From Gracilaria domingensis (taxonomy: Eukaryota > Rhodophyta > Florideophyceae > Gracilariales > Gracilariaceae): a stretch of 64,000 bases of DNA. The stretch spans positions 124,001 to 188,000 of the forward strand of contig VCMS01000059.1 of NCBI GenBank assembly GCA_022539475.1. The letters run 5' to 3'. The notes below the pieces were generated by a model, which worked only from the letters and a program-made list of their open reading frames with translations, did not search any database and was not told the origin of the DNA. Below, in pieces: positions 19,222-38,920 of the stretch (its first letter is position 1; every line of letters begins with the position of its first letter). The translations under genes were made by a program, and so were the position numbers.

Positions 19222-21306
19222 ATGGTGTCGGGCAAGCGCTCGAGCCCTACGAAGTCTCGCTCCGTTGGCCCTGGCTTGCCCCCACGTCTGCGGTCTGTTC
19301 CTGAACCCCTACAGGGTGATGGAAAGAAACGCGGAAACCGGAAACAGCCGGACAAGTCGTCTGACGCCCCAGTGGCTGGGCCCTCATCTGCTCCTTTGGA
19401 GGGTCTTATACCCGCTGTCGCGGCGAAGGATGCGCTCGTAAACGAGTTGGAGACTCAAGTTCGTGTGCTTGAGGCTCAGACTGCTGTCATGAGGAGTTCT
19501 CATGAAGCACTCGTTTCCGAGGTCGACACACTTCGTTTGAAGGTTGACGCAGCCCTCAACGGAGGTGTATCAGATGATCTACGTATTTTACGGAAGGATG
19601 TTAATGCCCTCTTGGAGGTTCTTCAAGGATATCCCGGTTTCACCGAGGAGGTTAACACGAAGTTCATTCGGATCCTTGGCCGTCTTGAGACGTTAGAGGC
19701 CACCATCCGTGAGGATGACGGCCCTGCTGCCGCCTCTGCGGGAGTGTCTCGTGGTACACGTGACCGGAAGTCCGGGAAGAGTCGCTCTAAGAAGAGGAAT
19801 GTCGACGAGTATGACTCGGATTCGTCACAGTCTTCTGGTATTTCAAACCGCTCGGCGGGTTCCTTATCATCGAGCTCGTCAAGTGACGGTGAACGTCGCG
19901 CTCGTTCTACGCGTTCGCGGAGTTCTACGTCCACCTATGGTGTTGTTGGTACCCGGAAACGGGGGCGAAAGCACTCAGGTTTGAGGGAACTGGAGCCGAC
20001 GAATCCCTTGTTCAAAAGGTTGTTATCTTACCGGTATTACCGTTTGGAAGATTCAAGTCTGAACCGGACGCCCCGTGGCACGGGTAAGGTGAAGGACTGC
20101 ATCAAACGCATGTCCTTAACCTTTCGCAACCAGTTGTTCACTGGGGAGGATCCCATTCTGGTGCTTGACTTTCTTTCACGCTTTGTAGCGGAAGCTGACA
20201 TCCTCGGCATGAGTGAGGGGCAAGCTTATGTTGCCTTACCGTATTTTCTACGTGGACTCGCTGAAGATCAGTATAACTCTGTAAGAGGTTCATCTCGCGC
20301 CTCTGAAGGAGGGGTCACCTGCTGGCCCGAAGCAGTGCAGTATTTGTTGCGCTCTTATGCGACAAATACCTCTATCGAGGAAGCAATCACCGCGTTGCGG
20401 GAGACGAAACAACGCCCGAAGGAGTCGGAAACTGAGTACTCGGTACGCCTGAATAAGGCATTCCACCGTTGTGGCAATGTTTACTCCTCAAACGAGCGCT
20501 GTACGCTATTTATCAACGGATTGAATCCGGCTATTCGTACTCTGGTTGCCCAGCGACGGGAAGACCGGAAGAAGACTACCTATCTGGAGTTAGTGCAGTA
20601 CGCGAAGGCGGAGGGAGACGCCTTGCGCGCACGCACCGGATACCGGGTTTCAACCAAGGCGTTGCACCTCGAAGGAGGGTCGTCATCGGCTTCACTGCTA
20701 CCGCAGGACTTTTCTGGCCACGATGTGGATAACTTACATCTCGCACAGGTGGACCTGGATTCTATTCCGACTACGGAGTTGCCTTCTACTTCAGAAGCCT
20801 CGTCGAAGACGGAAGATGCGCTGCTTTACGCAGACCGTCCACGCGTTCGCGGTCCTCAAGTACCCTATTCAGGGAGTCGTTACCAGCGACCTGGTTGGGT
20901 AGACCCGCGAACGGTGAAGTTCCAAGACCCACGGAGTTCCGGAAGACCACCCCTGATCTGTTTCACGTGTTACAACCACGGTCATGCAGCTCCGAACTGC
21001 AACCTCTCGATGAGGGAAATGCCCACGGTTGTGGCGAATTTTGAAGCGCTGACCCCCGCCGAACAGGCGTCAGTGCCGGTAACCGCATATCTGCGTGCGA
21101 AGGCTGAGTACCCCCGTAGGGTGTCTGCTGCAGAATTGGCTGCGTTACTGCACTCTGGTTCGACCCAGGTCAATGTTTCACCGGCTCAAGCCGTGGCGGC
21201 AACCGCTGTTGCGGGTAGTTCTGTCGCTGTTCCACAGGAATCTGTGAAGATGCCTGCTGCACAGGACGCCGTTCCCGTTAGAACGGATGGAACTCAGTTA
21301 AACTGA
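19222..21306 (+). CDS. Gag polyprotein of element A
   Basis: 694 aa from the ATG at 19222. A basic N-terminus, a heptad-rich coiled coil (about 80-175) and a Ser/Arg-rich stretch lead to a conserved capsid-like core (EDPILVLDFLSRFVAEADIL, then VRGSSRASEGGVTCWPEAVQ) of the Ty3/gypsy Gag family. Residues 580-593 are a canonical CCHC zinc knuckle (CFTCYNHGHAAPNC) for RNA packaging. The frame ends CAG TTA AAC TGA, which holds the -1 slip heptamer G TTA AAC. The core is closely matched by the broken gag of element B. Confidence 0.9.
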   Translation: MVSGKRSSPTKSRSVGPGLPPRLRSVPEPLQGDGKKRGNRKQPDKSSDAPVAGPSSAPLEGLIPAVAAKDALVNELETQVRVLEAQTAVMRSSHEALVSEVDTLRLKVDAALNGGVSDDLRILRKDVNALLEVLQGYPGFTEEVNTKFIRILGRLETLEATIREDDGPAAASAGVSRGTRDRKSGKSRSKKRNVDEYDSDSSQSSGISNRSAGSLSSSSSSDGERRARSTRSRSSTSTYGVVGTRKRGRKHSGLRELEPTNPLFKRLLSYRYYRLEDSSLNRTPRGTGKVKDCIKRMSLTFRNQLFTGEDPILVLDFLSRFVAEADILGMSEGQAYVALPYFLRGLAEDQYNSVRGSSRASEGGVTCWPEAVQYLLRSYATNTSIEEAITALRETKQRPKESETEYSVRLNKAFHRCGNVYSSNERCTLFINGLNPAIRTLVAQRREDRKKTTYLELVQYAKAEGDALRARTGYRVSTKALHLEGGSSSASLLPQDFSGHDVDNLHLAQVDLDSIPTTELPSTSEASSKTEDALLYADRPRVRGPQVPYSGSRYQRPGWVDPRTVKFQDPRSSGRPPLICFTCYNHGHAAPNCNLSMREMPTVVANFEALTPAEQASVPVTAYLRAKAEYPRRVSAAELAALLHSGSTQVNVSPAQAVAATAVAGSSVAVPQESVKMPAAQDAVPVRTDGTQLN

Positions 21307-21902: not shown

Positions 21903-24900
21903 GCTAAGCTGGTACCACTACCCGCTCCTCTACAGGATTCCTCACCTCCGAAGGAGTCGCCGAAGCTCCGCGTAGCGCGTGCAATTTCTATTCCGCCAGA
22001 ATCCCAGGTTTGGGTTGATGTTACTGCCGCACCGCGTGGTTTGCGGGTTGTTCAACCATTGAACTCGTTATACGAGAAGTATCAGGTCGCGTTGGCGAAC
22101 GGAGTTGTTCAAATCAACAGCGAAAACCCCTTTCGGGTTATGTTGGCCAACTTTGGCAAGAAGCCCCAGTATCTGGTGAAGAACCAAGTAATTGGTACTG
22201 TCTTACCGCACCCTACGGCGCTTATCCCTACAAAGGTGACTGCCGCCGAGATGCTCGGGCTTGCTGAAGAACGCACTGGGGTGCTTCACCCTAAGGAGGG
22301 GGAGGGAGAATCGTCGCGCTCGTCTGCGTCGGACCCGTCCCAGACGGTTGAACACACGAATGACTCGGAAGCTAGGACCGTTCCTACGAGTTATGACAAG
22401 ATTGACCCTATCGAGGAGTTAGAAGAATTGAATCTCGGTCATGTACCGGTTTCACACCGTGAGAAGTTGCGCAACATGTTGCGAGAGTTTACACCAATGT
22501 GGGATGGTTCCCTCGGAGAGGTTTCAACTACGGAACACGGGATTGACCTCCTGCCGGAGACCAAGCCGATTGCTCAGCACCCTTACAGGGCAGGCCCGAA
22601 GGCACGGGAAGAGGAAGAGTTTCAGATCAACAAAATGCTCCGCGCTGGCGTGATAGAACCGGCTCAGTCGCCGTGGGCATCTCCAGTTGTACTGGCTCCG
22701 AAACCCGATGGGTCCTGGCGCTTTTGTATCGACTATCGTCGCTTGAACGATGTCACCGTCAAAGACGTGTACCCCATACCTCGTATGGACGAGTATATCG
22801 ACTCGCTTGGCGATGCTACTGTGTTCTCCACTTTGGATGCAAACTGGGGTTACTGGCAAGTACCAGTTAGACCGGAAGACCGTGACAAGACCGCGTTTAC
22901 CTGTCATTCAGGACTATACCGCTTTAAGCGTATGCCGTTCGGGTTAACGAACGCCCCCGCTACGTTTCAGCGTGCTCTGGACATTTTGTTAGCTCGCTTC
23001 AAATGGCGGAGTTGCTTGGTATACCTCGATGACATCATCGTGTTTTCCAACAGTTTGGACGATCACCTCGAACATGTTCGGGAGATAATGACCGCTTTGC
23101 GGGATGCTGGAATTACTCTCAAATTGAGGAAGTGTGAGTTTTTCACTGACTCAGTGAAGTATCTGGGCCATGTCATACGTCCAGGACGGTTACTGATCGA
23201 GGAAGCTCGCGTGAAGTCCCTCAAAGAGGCGAAGCACCCCACTACACAGACAGAGCTACGCTCCTTTCTGGGGCTATGCAACGTTTATAGACGGTTCATT
23301 TCTCGCTTCGCAAAGATCGCGGGACCGCTCAACGAACTCCTGAAGAAGGGACAACCGCCCAAATTGGGACCATTTACCCCCACGCAAGTGGAGGCCTTCA
23401 ACTCTCTTAAAGAGGCTGTTACCACGGCACCCGTGTTAGCGTTACCAAAGAACGGGTTGCCGTACACCGTGGATACGGATTCGAGCAATTACCAAATTGG
23501 CTGCGCTCTCTTTCAGACTACACCCGAAGGGGAACGCAAACCAATTGGCTATTGGTCTCGTACACTCAACGTGCACGAGCGCAATTACTCGGTATCCGAG
23601 AAGGAGTGTCTCGCCATGGTATGGGCTTTGCAGACTCTACGACCATATCTTATGGGTGTGCACTTTACCGTCAATACGGATCATTCCGCCTTGCGTTGGT
23701 TAATGTCAGTCACGGAGCCTTCCGGACGCTTAATGCGTTGGCGTCTTCGGCTTGCCGAGTTTGACTACGAGGTCACCTATAAGAAGGGTTGTTTAAACGC
23801 GCAAGCGGATGCTCTTTCACGTCTAGGAACGGAAGGTGAAGCCTTACCCGTCGATGACGAGGATGAAGATATCCCCTGTTTCCTCATGGAGGAGGGTTAT
23901 GAAGACTACGACATCGTGTCGGACGATATCTGTGATGATTTGCTCGTCGCAGACCGTGAAGACCCGGAATCCGGTACATTCGTCCCCATTACTCCAGAAG
24001 AGCTGGTGCGGGAACAGCAATCTGACCCGTTCTGTACGAGGATACGCTCCCAAATTAATGGTGGTGCTAACATCCCGTTCGGGGTCAACACACAAGGTTA
24101 CCTCGTCAGAGTGGTTCGTTCTGCCCCACAGATTGTGGTTCCTCACTCCTTACAAACAAGGGTATTGCATCTCTCGCATCACTCGCGGATGGCTTCCCAT
24201 CCGGGTGCTAAGCGGTTATACACGACACTGCGTCGGGATTTCTACTGGCCCGCGTTAGCGTTGGACTGCTACACCACCGTGAAGGCGTGTACACATTGTG
24301 CTCGCGAGCGAGTTAAACACCGTCGCCATGCGAAGAAACTAACACTTTTCCCCGCAAGGGCGCCGTTGGAGTTTATTGCCATCGATATACTCGGTGAGTT
24401 CTTGCGTACTTCCCGAGGAAATCGGTTCTTACTCGTTATTACGGATAGATTCAGTAAGCTAGTCCGGACCGTTCCGTTGAAGTCGATTACAGCACGCAGT
24501 GTTGCGGAGGCATTCGTTCGCCATTGGGTTATGGTCTACGGTCCCCCGGTCAATCTCCTCTCAGATAATGGTCCGCAGTTTACTGCACGTTTCTTCCAGG
24601 ATGTCTGTCGGATACTCGACGTGAAGAATCTCTTCACGACGACGTATCATCCCCAATGCAATGGGCAAGTCGAACGGTTTAACCGGACAATGCTCTCCGC
24701 GTTGCGGGCTTATACAGTTGAACACCCGAAAACTTGGGATCTCTACACGGATACCGTGACGTATGCGTATAATACGCAAGTTCACAGAGTAACTGGTTTA
24801 TCGCCCTTTGAGCTCGTGCTCTCACGGACACCACCGCCAGTTGCGGTTGAACCATCAGCAAAGCTGGATACGTCACCGTCAATACGGGATCACTACTTGC

Positions 24901-26837
24901 AATGGAAGCAGTGGTTATCCGCAATGGTACCTGTCGCCAGGTCGTCAATGGCGAAAGCACAACACGCTTACAAGCGGAACTTTGATGCCCGGGTACGGAG
25001 ACCACTACCGCCACTGAAAGTGGGAAACCTCGCCTTTGTCAGGAAGGAGTACTACAACCCTGAAAAGGAGCGGCGCCACAAGCTTTCACCCATCGCTGAT
25101 GGTCCGTACCGCGTTGTCAGCGTGAACAAGGACACTGTCGTACTGGAAGTTGGTGACGCTCATGAGCGTTTCTCCCGCGATCGCGTGGTAAGAGGTCCAA
25201 CCGTTCACACGGAAGTACTTTCGGACACACAGCAGGAAGCTGGACAGACAGAGAACCGAGGAACCTCGTCGCAGAACACTACACCCACTGTGGGGCTCCG
25301 TCACCCAACACGGGGTCTCGCAGATGTACCGATTATATCGTCGCAAGCCGAGGTATCGGAACATACACCGCTGGTGAAATCGCGTTTCACAGCGTCTGTT
25401 ACACCGTCAACTGACGTGATGACTGCTCCCCATAACGCTCCACCTAAGGAGGGGGAGGGGAATTCACGCGTTGTCGCGGAGAGTGAGTCACCGGTGTCGC
25501 TACCGTCGCAGCACCGTGATTCACGGGAAAGTAATGAAGCAGAGGCAGAGTCGCCTCAGGACACCGTCGAAGACGTAGTTGCTACGGACACCACTGTCAG
25601 TGGGAAGGATCACCCGCTGTCGCGTGTTGAAGTCGCGAAGGACGCGCCGCAGTCGGCCGCTGTCGCGCAGAACTCTGCGGAGGATACACAACCTTCCACG
25701 AAGGATCGCGACCTTCAGGAAGGACACCGCACGCAACGAACGGACTCAAGGTTGTCCCAGGATACTGGTATTGCTCACCCATCTGGGGAATTGTCACAGG
25801 AACACGCGCCCATCGTCGCACGGACGCAGGACGCGGAGCATGCTCTCGTTCGCGAAGTTTCCACGGCAAGGCCGGAAGTTGATCAAGAACACCCGACTTC
25901 TCGGCAGAGCAAGGCTACAGCGAAGCTGGATACTGTATCACGGAGTATTCCGGACGCGCAGTCGCCGCATTCCGCCGCTGACGACCGCCGCAAACCGCCT
26001 TCGCAGGCGCGCTGTAGGGTAGTCACGGCAGATCCCGGTATCGTTGACACTGCAGAGCAGAAAGAAGAGAAGACGCTCGCTGAAGCGAAGATCAAGCACC
26101 CCGGTTCGGGTAATGGTAGTGCACCGTTGCACCCAGCCGTGGGGAAGTCGCAAGTCGCACGTCATGACGTTTCGCTAAGTCATGACGGCGCACCGCTCGT
26201 TGGAGATACGGATTACAGCCCTGATTTAGGGAAAACGCACACTGCAGCTGCAGGAGCGCTTGCGCACCACAAATCTTGGGGTGCGCAGCGCGCGCCACAC
26301 AATGGGCCAATCACAGCTCGTGGCAGCGCTGCCACCACGAACCGTCGCGCGCCGTCACGTGAACCGGCACGTGCCGTGGTGAACAATCCGCCTCCGCGTT
26401 CGCCTTCACCGTCAGGACGGGAACTACCGCATGAACTAGCCGTTCGCGGACCCGCCGAAGCGGCGAAGCTGCTTGAGAAGACCCGGATTCCGGAAGCGAC
26501 CACTCAGCGGAGGACACACTTACCGCCGAAGGCGTCAGGAGAAACTCACAGCACCGCTGGTGACTATGTAACGGCACCGCCGCGGCACGCTGACGACCCT
26601 TCGCAGGAAGAGCTCGAGCGGGGAGTTTACTCGAAAGAGTTCGTTGTCGACCACATAGTGGGGCACAGTTGGAACCCGAAGGGGTATGTTCAGTACCAGG
26701 TACGCTGGTATGGCTATCCGCCGTCGCGGGACTCGGACGAACCCGTGGAGCACCTACCCCGATCGAAGATCGTGCAGTACCACCGTCGTACTAACACGGC
26801 GTTGCCGGCTAATCTACATCAAGCGATGGTCGGTTAA
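21903..26837 (+). CDS. Pol of element A: RT, RNase H, integrase, linker, chromodomain
   Basis: Open in one frame for 1,645 codons after the TGA. RT blocks include PYRAGPKAREEE, SPVVLAPKPDGSWRFCIDY and the active site YLDDIIVFS (near 23020). RNase H follows (VDTDSSNYQIGC, EKECLAMVWAL, NTDHSALRWL). The integrase has a His/Cys zinc motif (24160-24310) and the D,D-35-E triad in AIDILGEF, SDNGPQF and NGQVERFNRTM. From about 25200 to 26610 runs a linker of about 450 residues rich in Ser, Thr, Pro, Glu and Ala with no fold. A chromodomain closes the protein (EFVVDHIVGH, YQVRWYGYPPSRDSDEPVEHL), which in chromoviruses targets integration to chromatin marks. Confidence 0.92.
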   Translation, partial: AKLVPLPAPLQDSSPPKESPKLRVARAISIPPESQVWVDVTAAPRGLRVVQPLNSLYEKYQVALANGVVQINSENPFRVMLANFGKKPQYLVKNQVIGTVLPHPTALIPTKVTAAEMLGLAEERTGVLHPKEGEGESSRSSASDPSQTVEHTNDSEARTVPTSYDKIDPIEELEELNLGHVPVSHREKLRNMLREFTPMWDGSLGEVSTTEHGIDLLPETKPIAQHPYRAGPKAREEEEFQINKMLRAGVIEPAQSPWASPVVLAPKPDGSWRFCIDYRRLNDVTVKDVYPIPRMDEYIDSLGDATVFSTLDANWGYWQVPVRPEDRDKTAFTCHSGLYRFKRMPFGLTNAPATFQRALDILLARFKWRSCLVYLDDIIVFSNSLDDHLEHVREIMTALRDAGITLKLRKCEFFTDSVKYLGHVIRPGRLLIEEARVKSLKEAKHPTTQTELRSFLGLCNVYRRFISRFAKIAGPLNELLKKGQPPKLGPFTPTQVEAFNSLKEAVTTAPVLALPKNGLPYTVDTDSSNYQIGCALFQTTPEGERKPIGYWSRTLNVHERNYSVSEKECLAMVWALQTLRPYLMGVHFTVNTDHSALRWLMSVTEPSGRLMRWRLRLAEFDYEVTYKKGCLNAQADALSRLGTEGEALPVDDEDEDIPCFLMEEGYEDYDIVSDDICDDLLVADREDPESGTFVPITPEELVREQQSDPFCTRIRSQINGGANIPFGVNTQGYLVRVVRSAPQIVVPHSLQTRVLHLSHHSRMASHPGAKRLYTTLRRDFYWPALALDCYTTVKACTHCARERVKHRRHAKKLTLFPARAPLEFIAIDILGEFLRTSRGNRFLLVITDRFSKLVRTVPLKSITARSVAEAFVRHWVMVYGPPVNLLSDNGPQFTARFFQDVCRILDVKNLFTTTYHPQCNGQVERFNRTMLSALRAYTVEHPKTWDLYTDTVTYAYNTQVHRVTGLSPFELVLSRTPPPVAVEPSAKLDTSPSIRDHYLQWKQWLSAMVPVARSSMAKAQHAYKRNFDARVRRPLPPLKVGNLAFVRKEYYNPEKERRHKLSPIADGPYRVVSVNKDTVVLEVGDAHERFSRDRVVRGPTVHTEVLSDTQQEAGQTENRGTSSQNTTPTVGLRHPTRGLADVPIISSQAEVSEHTPLVKSRFTASVTPSTDVMTAPHNAPPKEGEGNSRVVAESESPVSLPSQHRDSRESNEAEAESPQDTVEDVVATDTTVSGKDHPLSRVEVAKDAPQSAAVAQNSAEDTQPSTKDRDLQEGHRTQRTDSRLSQDTGIAHPSGELSQEHAPIVARTQDAEHALVREVSTARPEVDQEHPTSRQSKATAKLDTVSRSIPDAQSPHSAADDRRKPPSQARCRVVTADPGIVDTAEQKEEKTLAEAKIKHPGSGNGSAPLHPAVGKSQVARHDVSLSHDGAPLVGDTDYSPDLGKTHTAAAGALAHHKSWGAQRAPHNGPITARGSAATTNRRAPSREPARAVVNNPPPRSPSPSGRELPHELAVRGPAEAAKLLEKTRIPEATTQRRTHLPPKASGETHSTAGDYVTAPPRHADDPSQEELERGVYSKEFVVDHIVGHSWNPKGYVQYQVRWYGYPPSRDSDEPVEHLPRSKIVQYHRRTNTALPANLHQAMVG

Positions 26838-27329: not shown

Positions 27330-29375
27330 TTACTCGGATTCCTGCTGGTCTCCAGCGTTCGCAAGCTGCGCAATTAGCGCGTCGCGCATCTGCGAGACGT
27401 CGCCAGATGTCGAGTCGGAGATACCAGCCTCGCTGAGGAATTGAGCTATCACGGCAGCCCGTGCTTCGTCGGTAAGTCCCGCGTTCGCGGCTTCGTTCGG
27501 CGTAGCCGACGCCGCCATCGCAGGCGAAGCAACATTCTCCGCTGGAGTCGGAACCGCCACAGGCGTAGGAACAGGAGCCACTACGGGCCCAGGAGCCGCT
27601 AGAGGCGCAGAGGGAACATTCACCGGAGTCGGGAAGATCGCGTCGACACCCGCTTGGGGACCTGGCACTGCTGAAGCAGGTACTGCCCCCTCCACCGGAG
27701 CTGCTGCGAAGTTGTCATCGCCATAGTCGTCACCGTCATCGGGAGCGTCATCAACCATGATGTTTTGATCCCCGACAGGGTGAAAGAACTCATCAGTCAT
27801 GATGAAACCCGTTGGGTGCCCCGGAGGGATGACTCGCTCGGCATTCCGAAGAAGTTCCGCCTCGGCGTTGGTAATCGGCACCCGTGTCCAGGGGTCGTAG
27901 TAGATGTAATCACCCGACAGTGGGGACCTGCGACCCGGAGACCGGTCAATGGCAAGATCGCCTTCGTCGCGCGCGCTCTGCGAACGAGGAACCTGGTTCC
28001 AGTCGACTCCATCAATCACTCGCAAGAGGCACATGACTTCCGAGAAGTTTCCATTACCGCCAAGCGGGATAGTGAGATCCAAGGCTCGGATGAGTTGCCG
28101 CAAGCGCGGGGGAATGAACCACAGTCGATACTGGTCATATACCTCGTTGAGGAGATACACCGCTGTTCGCGCCGCCCACTCCGTGAGGACAACGCTCCAC
28201 CATCCCGTAAACGGGTTTGTCACGAGCCTACTACCCACATACGTGAGACAGGGGGGGAGTTCCACGTAACAGCCACGGCAGACCTCCACGGACGCCCACA
28301 CAAAGGGGAGAGGAACATATCTCCCACGCATGTGGCGCGGACGAATCCGGTTTGACTCCGTGTTTTGATACGGGATAAGGTAACCCCATCGGGAGCGGGC
28401 ACGTCGTTCGGGACGGATCATTGTTTGAAGGTAGTTGGACCGCGGTACGCGTGGGAGATATCGAAATTCTGCACGCAGAAGCGGACGGGTCCAGCACAGG
28501 AGATCCTGGTGAACGGGGACGTTCTGGTAACGCTCCACCACACCGGCGAGCCGGGCAAGATTCTCTCCATATTGGATTTCGCCGAGTGTTCGGAAGAAGG
28601 CCACGTCGAAACGGAAGTCCGCCGGAATCGGGCGCTCTGAGTACGTGCGAAACATGCGCATGTGCGCTACGCGAACCATGGCCGCTCGGGCGGAGTTGTG
28701 CGACTGACCACGATGGTGGACGAGCGCGTTGGTAGGCACGGTAATCCGGTAATGCCAGTCGAACGTCACCGTCATCCAGACGTGCACGCCTCCTGGGAGG
28801 TGACCACTGCCATCGGCATACGCCTCGACGAGGGAACGATTGGTCACGCCTTGCGGATGAAACCACGGAGCCCGTAAGAACGGTGTGGGATTGCTGCGAG
28901 AGTCGACGTTGTCGAGTTCGTCATACGACGCCCACGCGCCCGCATACGGGTTGACTACCGGTTGGACCGGAACAGCAGGAGCGATCCAGTTCCACTGCGG
29001 TACAGACGCCGGGGGCGGAAGTTGACCACCCGTCTGGGGAAGAGGAGCCGTGTGAAATCCCGGATTGACCGGTTGCGGAAACGGAACGCCAGCGGAAGAC
29101 GGCTGTGAGAGAGGCACTCCAGAGGAGGAAGGGTGTGAAGGCCCAGCGAAACCACCAACGTATTGGTTCTGAGACCCGCCAGGCGGTTGGTTGCTACCCT
29201 GATTCGGGTTCGGCATCGCGGAAGCGGCGCTAGGAAGAGAAGAAAGCGCTGGAAGCGAGAGAGGAGGAAGCGAACGCCGAGGTATCGGAGGAGACACTAC
29301 CGCAGTACGCGTGGAGAGGGGTGGACCGGAGTCGCCGTTAGAAGAGACCGGGGAGGCTGGATTGGGGACCGTCAT
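27330..29375 (-). CDS. Conserved antisense ORF of element A, unknown protein
   Basis: 681 aa from the ATG at 29375, on the strand opposite to gag-pol and starting 80 bp inside the 3' LTR. The N-terminus (1-150) is Pro/Ser/Gln-rich. The central 400 residues form one conserved region: APWFHPQGV, HLPGGVHVW, RPLLRAEFRYL, GRYVPLPFVWASVEV, YVELPPCLTYVGS, QLIRALDL, DYIYYDPWTRVP and IPPGHPTGF. The C-terminus is acidic (DDAPDDGDDYGDD), then Ala/Pro-rich, ending in a short helical segment (AAVIAQFLSEAGI). Every central block has a counterpart in the antisense ORF of element B, so it is a real protein under selection. I recognise no family. It is not an envelope in appearance: no signal peptide or membrane segment is seen. 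Confidence 0.8.
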   Translation of the reverse strand: MTVPNPASPVSSNGDSGPPLSTRTAVVSPPIPRRSLPPLSLPALSSLPSAASAMPNPNQGSNQPPGGSQNQYVGGFAGPSHPSSSGVPLSQPSSAGVPFPQPVNPGFHTAPLPQTGGQLPPPASVPQWNWIAPAVPVQPVVNPYAGAWASYDELDNVDSRSNPTPFLRAPWFHPQGVTNRSLVEAYADGSGHLPGGVHVWMTVTFDWHYRITVPTNALVHHRGQSHNSARAAMVRVAHMRMFRTYSERPIPADFRFDVAFFRTLGEIQYGENLARLAGVVERYQNVPVHQDLLCWTRPLLRAEFRYLPRVPRSNYLQTMIRPERRARSRWGYLIPYQNTESNRIRPRHMRGRYVPLPFVWASVEVCRGCYVELPPCLTYVGSRLVTNPFTGWWSVVLTEWAARTAVYLLNEVYDQYRLWFIPPRLRQLIRALDLTIPLGGNGNFSEVMCLLRVIDGVDWNQVPRSQSARDEGDLAIDRSPGRRSPLSGDYIYYDPWTRVPITNAEAELLRNAERVIPPGHPTGFIMTDEFFHPVGDQNIMVDDAPDDGDDYGDDNFAAAPVEGAVPASAVPGPQAGVDAIFPTPVNVPSAPLAAPGPVVAPVPTPVAVPTPAENVASPAMAASATPNEAANAGLTDEARAAVIAQFLSEAGISDSTSGDVSQMRDALIAQLANAGDQQESE

Positions 29376-29435
29376 GCCGACGTGCTTAAATACACTCCAG
29401 AGGAGGAAAGCGAAACCGCTCGCGTGGTCGTCTCG

Positions 29436-29454
29436 CACCCTAAGGAGGGGGAAA
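29436..29454 (+). promoter_or_regulatory. 3' polypurine tract of element A
   Basis: CCCTAAGGAGGGGGAAA abuts the 3' LTR and is the expected plus-strand primer. The 14-nt core CCTAAGGAGGGGGA recurs inside the element at 22287-22306 and 25441-25460. Confidence 0.85.
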
Positions 29455-30270
29455 TGTAGTGCAACGCGATTGCGGGACTCCTTCGCTGATGCGATTCATA
29501 ACATGCACGGCGATGCCGGGAGGTGGTGGCACACAGTATGAGTAACTGGTGAGATCAGCCCATTCTTGGGTATACTTAATATTAGAATTAGTGTTATGAG
29601 GCGCACGGCTTAGCCGGTGAGTCACACACGTGTGGGAAGTTTGCACCCATTAGTTGGGGTATTTTAGATGTTTATTCTAGATATTTTCGCTACAACGCTT
29701 GACAGTGGGTTGGCACTCTACACTACTTAGTAGGTTGAGCTGCACCCATTGTCGGGGAAGTAAACGGAACAACCGAGTGTTCGGCTCTGATGTTTCACCC
29801 TTGGTGACCGATATCCTCCTCCCGGAGAGTCGACACCTTGTGCAGGGTTCATCATCCGCCTCGCGGCATCATTAACACCACTACCGCTTTCGCGTGTTTA
29901 CTTTGTGTGTGTTTTCTTTATTTCTGTCCCTGTTCTACAGGTAGCACTACTTGGTGTACCGGTGCATACCGTTCGTGGCTCGACAGACTCGCGTGGGCTA
30001 CTACCACTCTCGCGTGTCATCGCCACACTCGTGGGTACCGTGTGCTACACACGTGACGCTACTGCCGACTTGTGTCGTGTGCTCTCTACCGCTGGACGCG
30101 TCTTCTTCGCCGCTTCGCTCCCTCCATTACTTGGGAAGGGTCGACCCCGGTCTTACACCCGGCATTGCCGTGTCGTACCTGTGGGAGCGCTCTACTGCTG
30201 TGCTCGCCTCTTGAGAGAGGGTCTGAACCGCCTTTGCGTGTCTTTCCCCATCGCTGGGTTTTGCACAACA
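29455..30270 (+). repeat. 3' LTR of element A
   Basis: 816 bp, about 99% identical to 17967-18782 by eye. Since the antisense ORF starts 80 bp away and points inward, any antisense promoter for it would have to lie in this LTR or in the tract just before it. Confidence 0.95.
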
Positions 30271-30900
30271 GAGATCCTGAGATTATTACTGTCCCAGCTG
30301 GAGTCGGAGTATGTTCTTTTGTTGCCGAAGCAACAGCTGTACGATGTGCCTTCCAAAACTTATGGGAGAGAATAGCACTTGGTTGGAGAGGAAGGGTACG
30401 TTTGTTGTTGGATTCACAGAGTTTGCTATTGGCACTGCAGTCAGCTGTGAGAAAGCAGTCATTCCTTGTGCAACAAATTTCGAAGCTTCTGGTTCAGATT
30501 GGAAACACATGCCCAGTTGACATGTTATGGGTACCAAGTCATTGTGGACTGGAAAAAAATGAATTGGTCGACAACGTAGCTGGAAATGGATTAAACCTAC
30601 CAATGGAGTTACAAGTTAGAGTTGCTATCGATTATTCCGATGTGTCAAGACGACTGAAGGAGCGTGAAGAAAAGCACTCTTTATTGAAAATGGTACCGCC
30701 TGGGTTAGCAAGTTCTGTTTCATTGCGTGAAGCAGAAACCACTTTAGCACAGTTATTTGTGGGACATTCGTTGTTACTGCACCCCCTAGGCACCCATTTA
30801 CAAGGAAAGAGGCTGGTTTGTTCTTGTAGGCCGGGTGTGCTGAATACTGTTGAGCACTATATGCTGCGTTGCCCAATGAGAACGTTATCGAGACGCCTCT
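30271..30900 (+). pseudogene. Non-LTR retroelement RNase H fragment between the two LTR elements
   Basis: The frame is open across the LTR junction at 30270 and over the whole 630 bp. RNase H blocks are AEATAVRCAF (Glu), RLLLDSQSLLLAL (Asp) and MLWVPSHCGLEKNELVDNVA (Asp). It ends in the Cys-His block CSCRPGVLNTVEHYMLRCP, as in the protein at 9147-10175. The first catalytic strand is missing at the left cut and the tail is missing at the right cut, where element B begins. Same strand as the endonuclease fragment at 17631-17966, so the two could be halves of one older insertion, but the reverse transcriptase between them is gone. Confidence 0.85.
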
Positions 30901-31757
30901 TGTGGTGCAAAACCCTTGACGGGAAAACAGCAAACCGCGTCGCGGACGAGCACCTCAGGGTGTTCAGGCCCTGCTCCCTGTGAAGGGCAGTCGAGCGGCA
31001 GAACCCTCCGATAGGGCCAACACGAGCCGGGTGTAAATCCGGGTGGCCCCGATCTGGGCGTGCAGTCGGAGGTAGAAGGGGTAGAATCGGCGTAGGTATC
31101 CGGATGGTTCCGGCGAGCCACAGCGAGTGGGGGTATCCAGCCCAACGGTATGGGACGACAAAAGATCAACAAACGAGCCGCACTGCGGGGCACTGACTCG
31201 CGATAAGCGGGAAAACTCCCGAGACAAATAAAACAAACCTACAATGTAGGGCAGAGTAGCGAAAGCCGTAAGACGGAAATGAAAACAATAAAATAGATAA
31301 GAAAAGTGCCGTGACGACGGATTAGTACTCCTCAGGGACGGAGGTTGGTTGATCAGCCCGGAATTGCGGCGGTATTCCCCAGGATGGGGCTGGTGACCGT
31401 GCGCAAGCGGCAAGAAGATCAGAGCCAAAGGCCTCGTTGAGGTTTACTTCCCGTACAGTGGCGGCAAGTGCCGCCACTTATATACGGCACTTGAAAATAT
31501 CAATTAAAATATCTAACTATCCGGCGCTGCCGGCCAATACACTACAGGTGTGCAACCGTGGCAGGCTTGCCACGGCGCACCCGCTATCGGGTCAACTTGG
31601 CACACGTGTGCAGAAATACTACCCTTCCTAGGCATAACCCAAAATAGGGCACTACCCCAGTAGCCTCTCATAACCTGAGGTGTCGAAGCCGATGACGGAT
31701 CAACAAACTATGAAAAGCACCTCGGTGCATCCCCACAAAAGGGCGTTTTGCTCTACA
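30901..31757 (-). repeat. 3' LTR of element B (left copy)
   Basis: 857 bp; on the minus strand it runs from TGTAGAGC to CACCACA. Matches 41791-42647 almost base for base. Confidence 0.95.
31458..31591. repeat. Strong hairpins inside LTR of element B
   Basis: Four perfect stems within 134 bp: GTGGCGGCA-AG-TGCCGCCAC (31458-31477), CCGGC-GCT-GCCGG (31521-31533), CCGTGGCA-GGCT-TGCCACGG (31556-31575) and CCCG-CTAT-CGGG (31580-31591). The same stems occur in the other LTR at 42348-42481. They lie 167-300 bp from the 5' edge of the LTR. Confidence 0.75.
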
Positions 31758-31772
31758 TCTCCCCCTTCTCAG
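31758..31772 (-). promoter_or_regulatory. 3' polypurine tract of element B
   Basis: On the minus strand CTGAGAAGGGGGAGA abuts the 3' LTR. Similar tracts lie at 33734-33752, 35428-35447 and 38636-38652. Confidence 0.8.
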
Positions 31773-31810
31773 GCTGAGACACCGACTCCGTCGGCTCGAT
31801 ACGCCTCGCG

Positions 31811-33610
31811 ATGGAGGGATATAAGGAAGTCTCCCAAGACGGGTCTGCCGAGAACTGTTCGGAGCCACCAACACCTCCGGTGTCAGTAGCGAACCTCGTC
31901 ATCTCGAGCCCCTCCGCGATGTCCAACGCACCGAACGGCCCTCCGTCCTCGACGGCACGCATGCAAGTATCGAACCCGCCGTTCCGGTCTGTTCCTCTCC
32001 CGCAGTCGGCGGCTGCCTCCCAGCCGGGTTCTTCCGGACAAGATCACGCTCCAGCCCAGGCTGGTCCCGCGCCCGTGTGGGATTGGTTCAACGCCGAGAT
32101 GCCAGCTACGCTGGGTGGATGGCCTACCGCAGGCGCGTTACGCATCCGGGATCCGCACCGGCACAGTTTCCTTTTTGCCCAGGCTCCCTGGTTTGACGCC
32201 GAAGCCGTTCGGGATACGGAGCTCGTCGACTCGTACGCTGTCGACGGTCAACTCCCTGGTGGGCTTCCTGCTGACGTTACCCGTTCATGGGACTGGATCG
32301 CCCGCGTTGCGGTTATACCGAGCTGCCTGTTTGTAGGTCGAAACGAGACGAGACAATTCGCTCGCAATGAGATGGCCCGCATTGGGTACGCGCGACACTT
32401 CCGAGCTCCGAACGAACATCCGGTGCCGGCACAGTACCAGTACGATGTGGCACGTTACCGAACTTTCGGCGAGGTCGGCTACGGCGACCATCTAGCCAAC
32501 GCGTTGGACGAAATTGACCGATATTCGGATACCGTTCAGCCGCAGCAGGAGTTGATCCTGTGGGCGCGGCCGATCCTTCGCGCCGAGTTCCGGTTCCTTC
32601 GCCGTCCTGGACGGTCTCAATTTCATGAAGGCCTCCGCTTCGAGAGGAAATGGCGTTCCCGCTTCGGGGTACTGGTGCCGTACCAGTGCACGGAGGTGGA
32701 ACGCATTGCGCGTCATTCCCATACTGGGCGATACCTGCCGCTGCCGTCATTCTGGCCTGCGGTCGAAGTCCCACGAGAGTGTCACGTAGAGCTACCGCCC
32801 TGCCTAACTTACATAGGCTCGTACTTCATGAATGATCCGCCTCGCGGCCTGTGGAGCATCCTGGCAACAGAATGGACCGTCCGCGTTGCGGCTTTCCTCC
32901 TCATCGAGGCATATGACTCATACCGAGTTTGGTTCATCCCGGAACTCATCCGGCAAGCGATCCGAGCGTTGGATCTCTCCGAAGTGCTCGGCTCGGTCCG
33001 CAATGCGCGCGAAGCCACCGCGTTGGTGGACGTCATTGACCAGATTGACTGGAATGAGGTGCCTGCTAGTCAGGTTTCCGACGGGGTCCGTCGGCAGTCG
33101 GACCGTTCCCCCGGACGGAACGTCAACGCCGGCGACTTCGTATACTTTGACCCATGGATTTGGGAGGTAATTGGTCCCGCTGAGGCGGCTGGTCGCCGCC
33201 GAGAGGAGCGATATATCCCGGAAGGGCACCCGCGTGGGTTCGTATACGTCGACGATGACGGTGATGACCCTGCAGAGGGAGGAAGTCCCATGGATGAGGG
33301 GAGCCCAGTGGGGGTTGCCTCGGAGCCCGACGCTACGGGAGATGACGACGAAGTCGTGATCGTTGACCCGCCCGCTGTAGCGGCTCCCGCTCCGACCGGC
33401 CCGTGGGCTCAGGATGTAGCATCCGCCGTGGGCGGCAGTTCTTCTCTCACTCCGCGAGCGGCGGTCATTCGCGACTTCCTTCGAGGCGTGGGAGTGGCCG
33501 TTCCCGATACGGTGACCGACGAGTCGGAGTTGCAGGCAATAGCGGCACAGCGCTTCTCCGGGGCTCCCGGTAGTGGGGGCACCCCAGGTGCTGGACCGTC
33601 CGGCGCGTAA
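31811..33610 (+). CDS. Conserved antisense ORF of element B, unknown protein
   Basis: 599 aa, ATG start 54 bp inside the 3' LTR, opposite in strand to gag-pol of element B. It aligns along its length with the antisense ORF of element A: APWFDAEAVRDTELVDSYAV, QLPGGL, RPILRAEFRFL, GRYLPLPSFWPAVEV, HVELPPCLTYIGS, QAIRALDL, DRSPGR, DFVYFDPW, IPEGHPRGF and the C-terminal AAVIRDFLRGVGV. The conserved middle carries many aromatic and Arg residues; both tails are disordered, the C-terminal one acidic. The frame is intact although gag and pol of the same element are broken. Function unknown. Confidence 0.8.
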   Translation: MEGYKEVSQDGSAENCSEPPTPPVSVANLVISSPSAMSNAPNGPPSSTARMQVSNPPFRSVPLPQSAAASQPGSSGQDHAPAQAGPAPVWDWFNAEMPATLGGWPTAGALRIRDPHRHSFLFAQAPWFDAEAVRDTELVDSYAVDGQLPGGLPADVTRSWDWIARVAVIPSCLFVGRNETRQFARNEMARIGYARHFRAPNEHPVPAQYQYDVARYRTFGEVGYGDHLANALDEIDRYSDTVQPQQELILWARPILRAEFRFLRRPGRSQFHEGLRFERKWRSRFGVLVPYQCTEVERIARHSHTGRYLPLPSFWPAVEVPRECHVELPPCLTYIGSYFMNDPPRGLWSILATEWTVRVAAFLLIEAYDSYRVWFIPELIRQAIRALDLSEVLGSVRNAREATALVDVIDQIDWNEVPASQVSDGVRRQSDRSPGRNVNAGDFVYFDPWIWEVIGPAEAAGRRREERYIPEGHPRGFVYVDDDGDDPAEGGSPMDEGSPVGVASEPDATGDDDEVVIVDPPAVAAPAPTGPWAQDVASAVGGSSSLTPRAAVIRDFLRGVGVAVPDTVTDESELQAIAAQRFSGAPGSGGTPGAGPSGA

Positions 33611-34098: not shown

Positions 34099-37000
34099 TC
34101 AACCCACTTGGGCCTTGTCCAGCGTAGCCGGTATCGGTGTCCGTGTGCGACGGTGGTACTGCAAGACCTTCGAGCGAGGCAAGTGCTCAATGGGCTCGTG
34201 CGTATCCTCTGAAGAGGCGTAGCCGTACCAACGGACTCGATACAGTAGTTCCCCGTCAGGGGCGTAGCCGTGACTTATCAGACGGTCAATGACATACTCC
34301 TCATCGAGGACCTTCCGCGCAGGATGCGGCTTTGTCGATGTATCCTCTCTCGAGGTGTCGTTGTTACCTCTCCCGTCGTGGGCTTCATTGGTTACTTTCG
34401 GCTTCCGTCCTGACGGCAAGACATCCTGTACGCCAGGCGAGAGCCATTTTGACCATGGTGTTTCCATGTCATTCCGGCTTCCAGAGTTCTGGCTTTCCTT
34501 CCCGTATTGTCGGGCTGTTACCGAGCTTCGGTGTTCTCGAATAGCGAGCTTCCGGCGTTCCGGCAAGATCTCCCGAAGTGAGGGTGAACGGTCCGCAATG
34601 CGGTGTGCCAGCGAGTGGTGCCGTGGCACGTGCCGAGGCGACGCCTTGCCAAGCATTGCTGGCGGTGGGGCCTGCGCCGTTGCACGGCTGTGCGTTGCCG
34701 ATTCAAATTCGGAATTTCCGTTTCCGGCGGCCGCAAGCCTTACAGCGGGCACGTGCCCGGCTCGTGTGTTGTCACCCTCCACTGGAGGCGGATCGCCGGC
34801 GAAGCCAGACACTTGGCGCAGCGTGCGCGCGTGTGCAGCGTTGGGCTGCTGCCCACCTACTGTGGCATGTCGACCTGCTGTTGCGGCGGTTGCCTCCGTG
34901 TTTTCAACGGCTTCATCACTCGATGCCTCAATAAAATCTCCCGAAATCGGGTCTGCCGTAACAACACGGTCTTTCTGGACAGGCTTCTTTTCCGGTCTTC
35001 CGGCTTCTTCTGACGCGAGTGCGCTGCCGCTGCCGGGCTCCGACTGCGGCGGGCATGTACTTTCCGCATTCGACGTGGCTGCTGCGGTGGTTACCACCCT
35101 CTTTTCCGGCGTAGCGGTCTCACGCTGCACAGCTGGGGCAGGCTCTTGTCCTTCCGTCTGTGACGGCCGTACAGTGCTATCCGCGGGCGAAGCGGCGACT
35201 TCTGCAGCAGCTACATCCTGGTGTTCTTCTGGTTCTCCGGCTTCGTGCTCCACCGAAGTGGTGCGTTCCTCTTTAGGCTTCCGCGATGACTGCGCGTTTC
35301 TCGCTTCTTTCCGAATCTTCGGCTGTACGTCGCGCGTCCGCGTGCTTTCACCACGACTTGCGTGCGGCCCGGAGGCCTGCAAAGGCACTTCCGTCGACGA
35401 CGGCGACAACGAAATCGAGCGACTTACCTCCTCCTCCCCCTCCTCAGTTGGAGCGTCGGGGGTGGTGGTGAGTATCCCCTGAGGGGCCAGTATCCGCGTG
35501 TGGACATGTGCGGCGTTCGAGACTGGCGGGTTAGCTTCCGGCTTTGCCGGCAAATCAGCAAGTCCGCGGCTAGGATGCGGCAGGACTGACAACGAAGCGC
35601 GCTCTCCCGCTGTCGCGGCTGGGTCCACAGTAGGCGTAGCGCTGTCCGGCGTTTCCGGTTGCTTTTCCTGACGAACAGGCTGTGGCGCAGGCGTTACGCG
35701 ATCGCGCGAAAAACGCTCGTGTTCACCCTCAATATCGAGGACAACCGTTGTATCGGTGATAGAAATAACCCTGTAGGGGCCGTCCGCGATAGGAGAGAGC
35801 TTATGCCTCTTCTCCTTTTCCGGGTTATAGTATTCCTTCCGTAGGAAGGCGTAGTTACCTTCCCTGATCTGAGGGGCATCCCTGCGCATTCGTGCGTCGA
35901 AATTCCGCTTGTACGCGGCTTGTGCCTTATCGATGTTTTGCCTAACTGTAGGAATGATGTTCTTAAGCCAGGCCTTCCAGGCGTCCCTGTGTAGACGAGG
36001 CGAGGGGAACTTATCCAAAGTTGGCTGTGGCTCGATAGCCACCGAAGGTGGAACGCGTGATAGCACAAGCTCGAACGGCGAGATCTGAGTAGTGCGATGA
36101 ACCTGCGTATTGTAGGCATATGTCACCGCATCGGTGTATTGATCCCACTCCGACGGATGTTCGGCAACGAATGTCCGTAATGCATTGAGCATTGTGCGGT
36201 TAAAACGTTCAACCTGCCCATTACTCTGGGGGTGGTATGTTGTCGTAAACCAGTTTTGGATCCGCAAGATGCGGCAAACGTCCTGAAAGAACTTAGCCGT
36301 AAACTGCGGTCCATTGTCCGATAACAGGTCCATCGGCGGTCCGTAGACAAAAACCCAGTGTGTAACGAAAGCTTGGGCGACCGCACTGGCGGTAACCTTC
36401 GTCAAAGGCACAGTCCGTACCAGTTTAGAAAAACGGTCGGTGATCACAAGTAGAAACCGGTTTCCCCGGCGAGTGCGGATAAACTCGCCGAGCAAGTCAA
36501 TTGCCACGAATTCAAGTGGAGCCCTAGCAGGGAAGAGTACCAACTTCTTGGAGTACTTCCGCAGTTTGACGCGGTTCTTCGCGCAGTCAGAACATCCACG
36601 AACAGTGGCATACGCGTCGAAAGCCATTGCTGGCCAGTAAAAGTCCTTCCGTAAGGTGTAGTACAACTTCCTGCCACCAGGGTGGGCTGACAACTTCGCG
36701 TAGTGCGACAAATGCAGTACTCGTGACTGAAGTGAGTGCGGAACCACAATCTGTGGCCTGTTTCCGACGGTTAGGATTAGAAATCCTTGGTCGTTCTCGA
36801 CGAAAGGCAACTGTGCTCCACCGTTTAGGCGACTACGAATCTCCGTACAAAAACGGTCGGTGTGCTGCTCCCGGATGAGTTCCTCCGGCTTGATCGGTAC
36901 GAAAGAGCCCGGTTCGGGTTGCGTGTCAGACACGGCTAAAACAGCATCGTAGATGTCCCATCCTTCCGATTCTTCATCGGCATCGCTCGAGCCGTCTTCC

Positions 37001-38920
37001 ACGAGGAAGCACGGTATCTCCAGATCATCGACTGGCGCAGCTTCAGCCGCTGTTTCCAAGCGGGACAGTGCATCAGCCTGAGTGTTCAGGAGTCCTTTCT
37101 TGTAACGGATTTCGAAGTCGAATTCCGACAAGCGAAGTCTCCACCGCATCAAGCGGCCAGATGGCTCTGCTATAGAGAGTAGCCAGCGTAATGCCGAATG
37201 ATCGGTATGGACAATGAAGCGGGTCCCCATAAGATAGGGCCGCAGTGTCTGTAACGCCCAGACAACTGCCAAGCACTCCTTCTCGGATACCGAGTAATTC
37301 CTCTCGTGAACGTTGAGGCTCCTTGACCAATACCCAATTGGCAATCGCTCGCCATCATTGGTGGTCTGGAATAGGGCACAGCCGACTTGGTAGTCGCTCG
37401 CATCCGTATCTACTGCATATGGCAGACCAGCCCTAGGCAGGGATAAAACAGGTGGCGATGTCACCGCGTCCACGAGCGACGAGAAAGCCGCGACCTTGCG
37501 GTCATCAAATTCTTCCAGGTCGACTGGCTGGCCTTTGCGAAGAAGCTCGTTCAGAGGTGCAGCGATATCCGCGAAGTTCGGAATGAAGCGGCGATACACA
37601 TTGCACAAGCCGAGAAAAGATCGGAGTTCCGTCTGCGTCCTCGGATGCCTAGCCTCTTTGAGGGATTTCACGCGTACTTCGTCAATCGAAAGCCGTCCCG
37701 GACGGATAACATGGCCGAGATACCTGACGGTTTCGGTAAAGAACTCACACTTCTTGAGCTTGAGCGTAATGCCTGCATCGCGTAGGACTCGCATCACATC
37801 CCGTACGTGGGTCAAGTGCTCATCCAGGTTGCTGGAGTAGACAATGATGTCATCCAGGTATACCAGGCAAGTCTTCTACTTAAAGCGGGCTAGCAAAATA
37901 TCCACAGCTCGTTGAAAAGTGGCTGGCGCGTTCGTTAACCCAAAGGGCATCCGATTGAATCGGTACAATCCTTCATGACAAACGAAGGCTGTCTTGTCAC
38001 GATCCTCAGCCCTCACGGGTACTTGCCAATAGCCCCAATTCGCGTCTAGGGTTGTGAACACTTTCGCGTCGCCCAATGAATCGATGCATTCATCCATTCG
38101 TGGGATAGGATACACATCCTTGACCGTAGCCGCGTTTAGCTTGCGGTAATCGATGCAAAATCGCCAAGACCCATCAGCTTTGGGCGCGAGCACCACCGGC
38201 GATGCCCAAGGTGACTGAGCCGGCTCGATAACTCCAGCGCGGAGCATCTTCTCAACTTGAGCTTTCTCCTCCTGCCGAGCTGTCGGTCCTGCCCTGTAAG
38301 GGTGCTGTGAAATGGGCCGATTATTCGGTAGCAAATCAATCCGATGTTCGGTAATACCAATCTTACCCAGAGTGCCATCCCACATGGGCGTGAACTCCTC
38401 AAGCATGTGCCGCAATTTATCGCGGTGAGTCTCTGGGACATGTTCAAGATCCAGAGACTCCAGTTCCTGTACTGCCTTATCCTTCGTGTCAGCAGCACTC
38501 AGGTCCGTATCATTACTGTCCGACGAGGTCGGCATTGCCTCCTTCGACAGGCTGCGGTTATTTGCATCCGACGAAGTCGGCGTAGCATCTTCCGACGAAC
38601 TGTTCGGTCCAGTCGTTTCGGAATTGTTCCGTTCCGCCTCCCCCTCCTCAGCTTCGAGGATTCCGAGAACCTCGGCAATAGAAACCTGAGTAGGCACTAT
38701 AGCCGCAGGATGCGGAAGCAACGAACCAATAACTTGGCTCCTAACCAACCGTTGAGAAAAACGGCTGAAGTTCGCAACCAGCACCTGAAAAGGCTTCTCG
38801 GGTTCGACGAAAACAATCCCATTAGCGAGGGCAAGCTGATGCTTCTCCTGTAACGCAGGCAACGGTTGTACCGTTTGTAAGCCACATTGTGGGGAGGTCA
38901 CAGTAACCCAGACCTGTGAT
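34099..38920 (-). pseudogene. Pol of element B with one nonsense codon: RT, RNase H, integrase, linker, chromodomain
   Basis: One frame from the protease junction to 34099, interrupted by TAG at 37876-37878, just before the RT active site YLDDIIV. The 3' part alone is over 1,200 codons. Motifs: SPVVLAPKADGSWRFCIDY, VDTDASDYQVGC, NTQADALSRL, integrase FVAIDLLGEF, SDNGPQF and NGQVERFNRTM. As in element A, a disordered linker of about 420 residues lies between integrase and the C-terminal chromodomain (EYVIDRLISHGY, YRVRWYGYASSEDTHEPIEHL). The stop could be a single G-to-A change. If it is real, the element cannot make integrase by itself. Confidence 0.9.

Follow-up and report, generated by a model that had tools for sequence, protein, structure and literature searches.

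What is the large gene that two Ty3/gypsy elements of the red alga Gracilaria domingensis carry antisense to gag-pol, and does it serve the elements themselves? The window, the whole 64,000-nucleotide stretch that was analyzed, contains element A with its gag-pol on the forward strand and element B with its pol on the reverse strand. A first-pass annotation had reported in each a long open reading frame (ORF) opposite gag-pol, and that arrangement was confirmed, as both genes lie between pol and the 3' long terminal repeat (LTR), 53 to 79 nt from the LTR. The parts of the two elements are as follows.

17967..18782, + strand: element A 5' LTR, TG...CA, 816 nt (repeat found with its first 300 nt, ends set by eye)
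19177..21306, + strand: element A gag-like ORF, with a zinc-knuckle-like CFTCYNHGHAAPNC recognized by eye
22041..26837, + strand: element A pol, with reverse transcriptase (RT), RNase H, integrase, and chromodomain
27330..29375, - strand: element A antisense gene, ATG at 29375, stop at 27330, 681 aa
29442..29454, + strand: element A polypurine tract (PPT), AAGGAGGGGGAAA
29455..30270, + strand: element A 3' LTR (repeat, identical stretch at 17967)
30901..31757, - strand: element B 3' LTR, 857 nt (repeat found with its first 300 nt)
31758..31770, - strand: element B PPT, GAGAAGGGGGAGA
31811..33610, + strand: element B antisense gene, 599 aa
33736..33748, - strand: second exact copy of the element B PPT, between the pol end and the antisense stop
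34099..37815, - strand: part of element B pol, with the RT end, RNase H, integrase, and chromodomain, the frame being interrupted upstream
41791..42647, - strand: element B 5' LTR (repeat)

The antisense ATG of element A is 79 nt from the LTR edge, and a mechanical ORF list begins the same ORF at a GTG at 29438 (702 aa). In element B, the antisense start is 53 nt from the LTR edge at 31757, and the 12-nt core of the second PPT copy was found in 30 of 30 B loci. Both carriers have the features of Ty3/gypsy chromoviruses, a class assigned here from the domain order (RT-RNase H-integrase), the C-terminal chromodomain, the LTRs, and the PPT. Inspection by eye revealed no target-site duplication of 4 to 6 bp at either LTR pair. 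Finally, the gag-like ORF of element A gave no gag family match in a domain search, and it matches element B in blocks.

The antisense protein

The antisense ORF of element A is longer than base composition alone produced, as the longest ATG-initiated ORF in 2,000 mononucleotide shuffles of the gap between pol and the LTR was 346 codons compared to 681 in the real sequence. Moreover, the A and B proteins are 42% identical over 495 columns (BLASTP, E value of 1e-111), and the conserved blocks occur in the same order, as had been described. The corresponding identity was 53% for pol and 35 to 69% for gag blocks, and thus the antisense protein is conserved to a degree that resembles other element proteins, and the idea that it is better conserved than its neighbors did not hold. 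The similarity was also not a by-product of a conserved sense-strand product.

The A protein has a low-complexity N terminus (approximately residues 1 to 150), a folded core (approximately residues 155 to 530), an acidic linker, and a C-terminal helical motif, and the B protein is laid out in the same way. The core was modeled with a pLDDT of 78 and a pTM of 0.81 and is predicted to be mostly helical. A helical, Arg-rich core (in A, a pI of 9.75 with 45 Arg plus Lys in 371 residues) that is flanked by disordered tails and strongly constrained might befit a minor structural or ribonucleoprotein component that is taken into Gag particles, as accessory virion proteins are. That role seems distinctly unlikely, however, as the antisense profile did not match element A gag (hhalign probability of 0.2%), fold searches returned no capsid fold match, the B core, with a pI of 6.1, is not basic, and an antisense promoter would be an odd supply route for a structural protein. 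The failure to match element A gag also leaves the earlier suggestion of capsid help without sequence support, and a captured gag as the origin of the protein was rejected.

The site between pol and the 3' LTR is the position of env, and red algal cells are linked by pit connections. An envelope-like protein, or a movement protein that travels from cell to cell through those connections, would suit the location but is very improbable given the antisense orientation and the absence of a signal peptide or membrane helix. No hydrophobic segment was long enough for a membrane helix, with a top 19-residue Kyte-Doolittle mean of 1.22 in A and 1.52 in B, in agreement with the earlier view that the protein is not envelope-like.

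No basic nuclear localization stretch stands out in either protein (RRR occurs once in B and not in A). Lysine is absent from the A protein (681 aa) and occurs twice in the B protein (599 aa), compared to 4.1 to 4.4% in gag and pol. Selected avoidance of lysine was considered but not adopted, and the scarcity of lysine is kept as an oddity: base composition already predicts no more than 10.7 lysines in A and 8.7 in B, and lysine-making variants were undepleted, at 5 of 166 amino acid variants in A and 1 of 33 in B when approximately 3% was expected.

Family-library and fold searches with the antisense protein returned nothing significant, including no match to an enzyme family in the libraries searched. 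The protein had been called a member of no recognizable family, and it apparently represents a new one, absent from those libraries. The sole relative with a named host, at 66% to B, is a protein of the red alga Gracilariopsis chorda.

Selection and genome-wide placement

Purifying selection acts on the antisense protein. Among loci taken as the best 30 of 73 protein-match rows in each family, a choice that biases dN/dS downward, pairwise dN/dS was 0.22 for 23 A copies and 0.115 for 29 B copies, and third positions held 61% and 75% of the differences, respectively. Maximum likelihood omega was 0.40 for A and 0.24 for B, and fixing omega at 1 worsened the fit by 38.7 and 29.2 lnL. Variants common to several copies gave an omega of 0.17 in A and 0.10 in B, while private variants gave 0.84 in A and 0.36 in B; the latter value suggests the downward bias, with A less affected. 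The A C terminus (residues 531 to 681) by itself gave 1.54, indicating no constraint, from few changes. We conclude that constraint on the protein operates during replication of the elements and relaxes greatly after insertion, clearly so in A. Selection on the protein, which the first-pass annotation had argued from the divergence of gag, is upheld by many-copy dN/dS values that are not near 1, but its original basis was weaker than claimed: between A and B, the antisense protein has changed to roughly the same degree as gag and to a greater degree than pol.

The same data bear on whether the gene restrains its own family. Yeast Ty1 controls its copy number through a truncated Gag, and by that precedent an antisense RNA, protein, or both could limit the element that encodes them. 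We consider self-limitation unlikely, however, as an RNA effect needs no constraint at the protein level, yet common variants show it, and a restraining protein would be harder, though not impossible, for element-level selection to keep.

The gene is not confined to elements A and B. A six-residue core pattern occurred 385 times genome-wide compared to 14 times for the reversed control, or approximately 370 places above control, a tally of pattern occurrences rather than of individually checked places. Thus, the claim of a large shared antisense gene stands, but its restriction to two families does not. Every one of the 60 loci recovered through the ORF had an LTR at the antisense start, and a matching, convergent pol was found at the far end in 59 (the 60 loci become 56 once four with duplicated outer flanks are removed). 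Moreover, in 28 of the best 30 A rows the distance between the gene and an opposite-strand PPT-LTR motif was exactly 71 nt; in another family, 12 of 43 rows were 455 to 467 nt from such a motif, which was opposite in every case. We conclude that a protein gene occupies one constant position in numerous copies of several element families. A gene captured from a host or virus, carried as cargo that serves another mobile element or the host, might account for a separate metagenomic protein group that matches the central 160 columns (hhalign probability of 97%). Cargo is nonetheless a long shot, since place and orientation do not vary among divergent families and the protein is constrained as the elements replicate, both of which point to an element function.

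Candidate function and known parallels

The roles listed by the first-pass annotation (silencing suppression, copy number control, and capsid help) remain guesses. We favor, at a probability of roughly 0.5, a reading in which Ty3/gypsy elements of a lineage with a chromodomain carry an accessory gene of the aORF-3R kind that would be expressed from an antisense promoter and encode a nuclear regulator acting in trans. The promoter, in or beside the 3' LTR, would transcribe the gene separately from gag-pol RNA such that dose and timing could be set independently. The soluble, mostly helical core, rather than being a capsid, envelope, or enzyme, may regulate expression or counter silencing of the element family inside the nucleus of the host and favor its replication. 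Most likely, the antisense gene helps the elements spread.

HBZ, the antisense gene of HTLV, encodes a much smaller bZIP protein. It is mentioned in PMC11963269 and resembles the algal gene in being a retroelement antisense gene read from the 3' LTR side, a likeness of layout rather than of compared sequences. Closer in arrangement are the antisense additional ORFs (aORF-3R) of plant LTR retrotransposons, which PMC7264820 describes for Grande (GENE23), RIRE2, and PvRetro13; the GENE23 product is nuclear, and its antisense transcript comes from a promoter of its own. The algal gene likewise occupies the interval from pol to the 3' LTR in antisense orientation, but its carriers bear chromodomains, it starts less than 80 nt from the LTR, it matches no family in the libraries searched, and the only named host of a relative is a red alga; the likeness is one of layout, not of protein comparison. 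Boty of Botrytis, mentioned in PMC7264820, offers a case outside plants of an antisense ORF at the same site, and it too is likened by layout and not by protein, Boty being fungal unlike the algal elements. The Retand lineage carries an antisense Transposase_28/TRP28 protein, and Retand is a nonchromovirus lineage of flowering plants (PMC11963269), whereas the pol of A and B ends in a chromodomain. TRP28 corresponds to PF04195, and 0 of 15 members of the algal antisense protein family matched PF04195 at a maximum E value of 10, a search in which HMMER filters drop most matches above approximately 0.1. Because antisense ORFs at the same site are known in plants, the arrangement is known and the protein family is apparently new. 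The algal case also suggests more than one origin of antisense accessory genes.

In plants, genes lying antisense in the interval from pol to the 3' LTR have been recorded for years with no known role. The algal case adds a large, apparently red algal family with clear selection, a well-modeled core, and a natural module swap on two pol backgrounds, and whether the antisense protein serves the element can now be tested by RNA-seq and expression assays.

The 3' module and unpaired pol copies

The swap was seen in element B. Seven of the 30 B loci, including a pair with one outer flank in common, kept the antisense gene and LTR but had pol C-terminal DNA that was only 79 to 81% identical in the aligned stretch. 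For six profiled B loci, identity was 97.9 to 99.4% in the gene, 93.5 to 98.0% in the LTR, and 39 to 77% in bins of the pol linker. We conclude that the B gene, gap, and LTR form a single 3' module joined to two pol sublineages. It is tempting to go further, and at somewhat less than even odds we propose a protein family not described before, whose fold may also be new. Together with its 3' LTR, the gene would make up an antisense regulatory module that can be selected and exchanged and that passes from one algal chromovirus pol lineage to another, and the family would have a distant branch outside them. If so, the antisense accessory genes of chromoviruses would have arisen independently of those in flowering-plant Retand and Grande elements.

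Among the matches listed, 36 of 73 A-type pol rows were paired with an antisense row, and 37 had no A-type antisense row downstream. Some of the latter may nevertheless carry the gene, as 7 of the 37 have a listed PPT-LTR motif 5.8 to 6.9 kb downstream and thus have room for it. In one of the seven, C14, the core pattern is 5.67 kb away and the PPT-LTR 6.90 kb away, compared to 5.62 and 6.80 kb in element A. Within contigs C1 to C76, for which the pattern list is complete, C14 was the only one of eight unpaired rows with the core pattern, and the other seven had neither core pattern nor PPT-LTR 3 to 9 kb downstream; thus, truncated, changed, or different 3' ends exist. Finally, at another unpaired pol row the antisense gene 5.5 kb away is of a different type and lies on the pol strand.

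Structure of the elements and their antisense genes

The antisense genes reside in two Ty3/gypsy elements, A and B, whose 3' ends point toward each other. In each LTR pair, the first 300 nt were identical by repeat search, and LTR ends were taken by eye.

17967-30270 (+): element A, two LTRs of 816 nt
30901-42647 (-): element B, two LTRs of 857 nt
29375 to 27330 (-): element A antisense ORF, 681 aa
31811 to 33610 (+): element B antisense ORF, 599 aa

Both pol genes matched RT, RNase H, integrase, and a C-terminal chromodomain, and the RT match in the element B ORF covers only the end of RT because the frame is interrupted upstream. Each element carries a polypurine tract at the 3' LTR, and each antisense ORF lies between pol and that LTR on the opposite strand, overlapping neither. 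The longest ATG ORF in 2,000 mononucleotide shuffles of A's pol-LTR gap was 346 codons. The first-pass annotation proposed that A and B have a large antisense ORF in common, and indeed their products align over 495 columns with 42% identity. We note that a PBS-like sequence, TGGTCTCCCGACTTAGAA, is identical in both elements directly after the 5' LTR (18783 onward, +; left of 41791, -; by eye). LINE-like pieces flank element A (17631-18053 and 30270-30983; by eye), with an endonuclease-like ORF on the left and an RNase H-like ORF on the right (also by eye), and no target-site duplication was obvious at either element.

Selection on the antisense protein

The antisense frame evolves as a coding sequence. 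A dN/dS comparison over many copies, suggested in the first-pass annotation, was run pairwise after loci were oriented and with flank duplicates included, and it gave 0.224 among 23 A copies (L001 to L023) and 0.115 among 29 B copies; the 30th, L060, differed in length and was omitted. Third positions held 61% (A) and 75% (B) of the differences, and dN/dS fell to 0.16 and 0.04, respectively, in the core only. Values were also low in the opposite-strand frame with shared wobble positions (0.49 in A and 0.18 in B), as expected because the frames overlap, and the remaining frames were at 0.949 or higher. At the A C terminus (residues 531 to 681), no constraint was seen, with a dN/dS of 1.54 on few changes. 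When four flank-duplicate loci were dropped, GY+F3X4 omega was 0.40 in A (29 loci) and 0.24 in B (27 loci), and fixing omega at 1 was 38.7 and 29.2 log units worse (fitted kappa, same tree).

Variants found in at least two copies mostly arose during element replication, and private variants mostly arose after insertion. With the majority codon treated as ancestral, the omega-like ratio of shared variants in the antisense gene was 0.17 in A (39 N, 97 S) and 0.10 in B (6 N, 26 S), and that of private variants was 0.84 in A (89 N, 46 S) and 0.36 in B (24 N, 29 S), the choice of loci as best protein matches having lowered N, most visibly in B. In the last 300 pol codons, largely linker, shared variants gave 0.60 in A (28 loci) and 0.97 in B (27 loci) and private variants gave 1.53 and 1.20, where the pol B counts mix two sublineages. 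Codons with more than one base difference were excluded: 38 and 3 in the antisense genes of A and B, and 20 and 61 in their respective pol genes. Both the omega values and the shared variants uphold the earlier claim of selection on the protein. Moreover, stop-free rows numbered 47 of 73 for A, 53 of 73 for B, and 55 of 73 for pol among the matches listed (by eye; fragments included), and thus the antisense frame and pol are similarly intact. We put the probability that this is an accessory gene of the element, encoding a protein under constraint, at roughly 0.95.

Layout, block exchange, and distribution

The 60 loci examined were all retrieved via the antisense ORF and are the best 30 of 73 rows per family. 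An LTR was found at the antisense ORF start in 60 of 60 (partial for B in L042 and L043) and a convergent pol match at the far end in 59, the exception being L008; four loci had an outer flank duplicated with another locus, leaving 56. Among the matches listed and 100 of 292 places of the PPT-LTR motif (PPT, polypurine tract), 28 of the best 30 A rows were exactly 71 nt from an opposite-strand motif, and 12 of 43 rows resembling the outside relative P0001 were 455 to 467 nt away, all on the opposite strand, the distance being longer because P0001 is without its N terminus. We conclude that a constrained, coding gene occupies a fixed place in these elements.

Not every pol copy was paired. Among the matches listed, an A-type antisense row lay within 6 kb of an A-type pol row in 36 of 73 cases, all 36 convergent, and one of the 37 unpaired pol rows had a P0002-like row 5.5 kb off on pol's own strand. 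Eight unpaired rows sit on contigs with a complete list of the core pattern, a degenerate six-residue pattern of the antisense protein. One, on C14, had pattern and PPT-LTR motif both at the expected distances, and the other seven had neither within 3 to 9 kb, the PPT-LTR motif being sought among listed places with at most one mismatch. Thus, in a real share of pol copies the antisense-bearing 3' end may have been lost or replaced. At least 7 of the 37, C14 included, had a PPT-LTR motif 5.8 to 6.9 kb downstream, which leaves room for an antisense gene.

Seven of 30 B loci (L048 and L049, among them, have a common flank) matched B in LTR and antisense gene but shared just 79 to 81% identity with B in the aligned part of the pol C-terminal DNA. 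Six of the seven were profiled: identity was 97.9 to 99.4% in antisense gene bins, 93.5 to 98.0% in the LTR, about 89% at the chromodomain end of pol, and 39 to 77% in linker bins, the drop starting near the pol end. Three B loci from outside these seven had 93 to 100% in pol. As gene and LTR identity is kept while pol diverges, the antisense gene, gap, and LTR are one block on two pol backgrounds. Template-switching recombination would be the likely route of exchange. Separately, an A-type LTR adjoins a truncated B-type LTR in L012, L015, L042, and L043 (L012 and L042 are one place on C561; L042 and L043 have a common flank), and these junctions look as if A elements inserted into B LTRs.

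The 13-nt B polypurine tract has a second exact copy beyond the far side of the antisense gene, at 33736-33748 (-), and all 30 B loci but none of the 30 A loci contained the 12-nt core of this second tract. G5-containing tracts resembling the PPT recur within both elements.

22293-22310, 25446-25462, 29442-29454 (+): element A G5 tracts
38637-38649, 35427-35445, 33735-33748 (holding the second copy), 31758-31770 (-): element B G5 tracts

Two internal tracts nearly match in distance from the pol end (22293 and 25446 in A versus 38649 and 35445 in B). The internal tracts might prime plus-strand synthesis at additional sites, as a central PPT does.

The genome search covered 77.9 Mb in 680 contigs and scored the best candidates, so row counts are lower bounds; lists for different queries overlap, and a single gene can yield several rows. 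Rows numbered at least 73 for A, 73 for B, 78 for P0002, 83 for P0004, and 88 for P0001. Those listed fall into at least five groups: A, B, P0002-like, P0001-like (at least 43 rows, 53 to 67% to P0001), and C49 (L062, 48% to P0002). The core pattern, [A/V]-E-L-P-P-C, occurred at 385 places genome-wide versus 14 for its reverse. Outside the genome, one relative comes from the red alga Gracilariopsis chorda: P0003, annotated as a hypothetical protein (66% to B), which is the basis for regarding the host of A and B as probably a red alga. Further relatives are P0001, P0002, P0004, P0006, and P0007. A metagenome protein group (P0005 and 12 others) reached 97% hhalign probability across 160 central columns of the profile, although the sequence-search E values were just 0.06 and 0.04.

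The protein and its possible role

Conserved columns run throughout the core (A, approximately 155 to 530), a short helical motif ends most rows, and the N terminus and linker are low complexity. The first-pass annotation saw no membrane helix, and indeed no hydrophobic segment suits one. Structure prediction, one of the checks it proposed, was run with AlphaFold2 and gave a confident, mainly helical model of the A core (13 rows; pLDDT 78, pTM 0.81) and a weaker one of full-length B (15 rows; pLDDT 65, pTM 0.59). Neither model found a fold match in the PDB, nor did B in BFVD. Compared with those collections, the predicted fold is possibly new. Lysine is nearly absent (0 of 681 residues in A, 27330-29375; 2 of 599 in B, 31811-33610; arginine, 50 and 51) and makes up 0.2 to 2.2% of antisense relatives versus 4.1 to 4.4% of gag and pol, and polymorphism gave no sign of selection against it.

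Antisense transcription would start from the 3' LTR side, because no other promoter would be reliably carried along, and the protein may act in trans. In Arabidopsis, the transposon VANDAL21 encodes an anti-silencing protein that acts in trans. Weighed against its rivals, the best explanation may be a nuclear regulator that favors its own element's expression or escape from silencing, to which we give an even chance; an anti-silencing step by itself is more tentative, with the odds leaning against it. Support for this role comes by analogy. In Grande, antisense transcription of GENE23 is driven by its own promoter, and the product is nuclear (PMC7264820). The same paper also records an antisense ORF between pol and the 3' LTR in plants (aORF-3R) and in fungal Boty, so the arrangement is already known. 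For the antisense proteins of Retand, a role in regulating transcription has been proposed (PMC11963269). None of 15 antisense family members matched TRP28, the Transposase_28 protein of Retand, and the carriers here bear chromodomains, unlike Retand. Searches of open-licence literature listings turned up nothing relevant to antisense genes in red-algal retrotransposons. A survey of three red algae reports no retrotransposon chromodomains (PMC3350952), and the presence of such elements in a red alga would extend its findings.

Within the window, the core pattern occurs at two places, solely the A and B antisense genes. Other ORFs there had domain matches.

11426-14140: C2-domain ORF
46284-47429: Orn/Lys/Arg decarboxylase-like ORF
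50578-51798: SurE ORF
55131-57386 (-): animal haem peroxidase-like ORF (strong match, E = 3e-123)
59872-63669: protein kinase ORF
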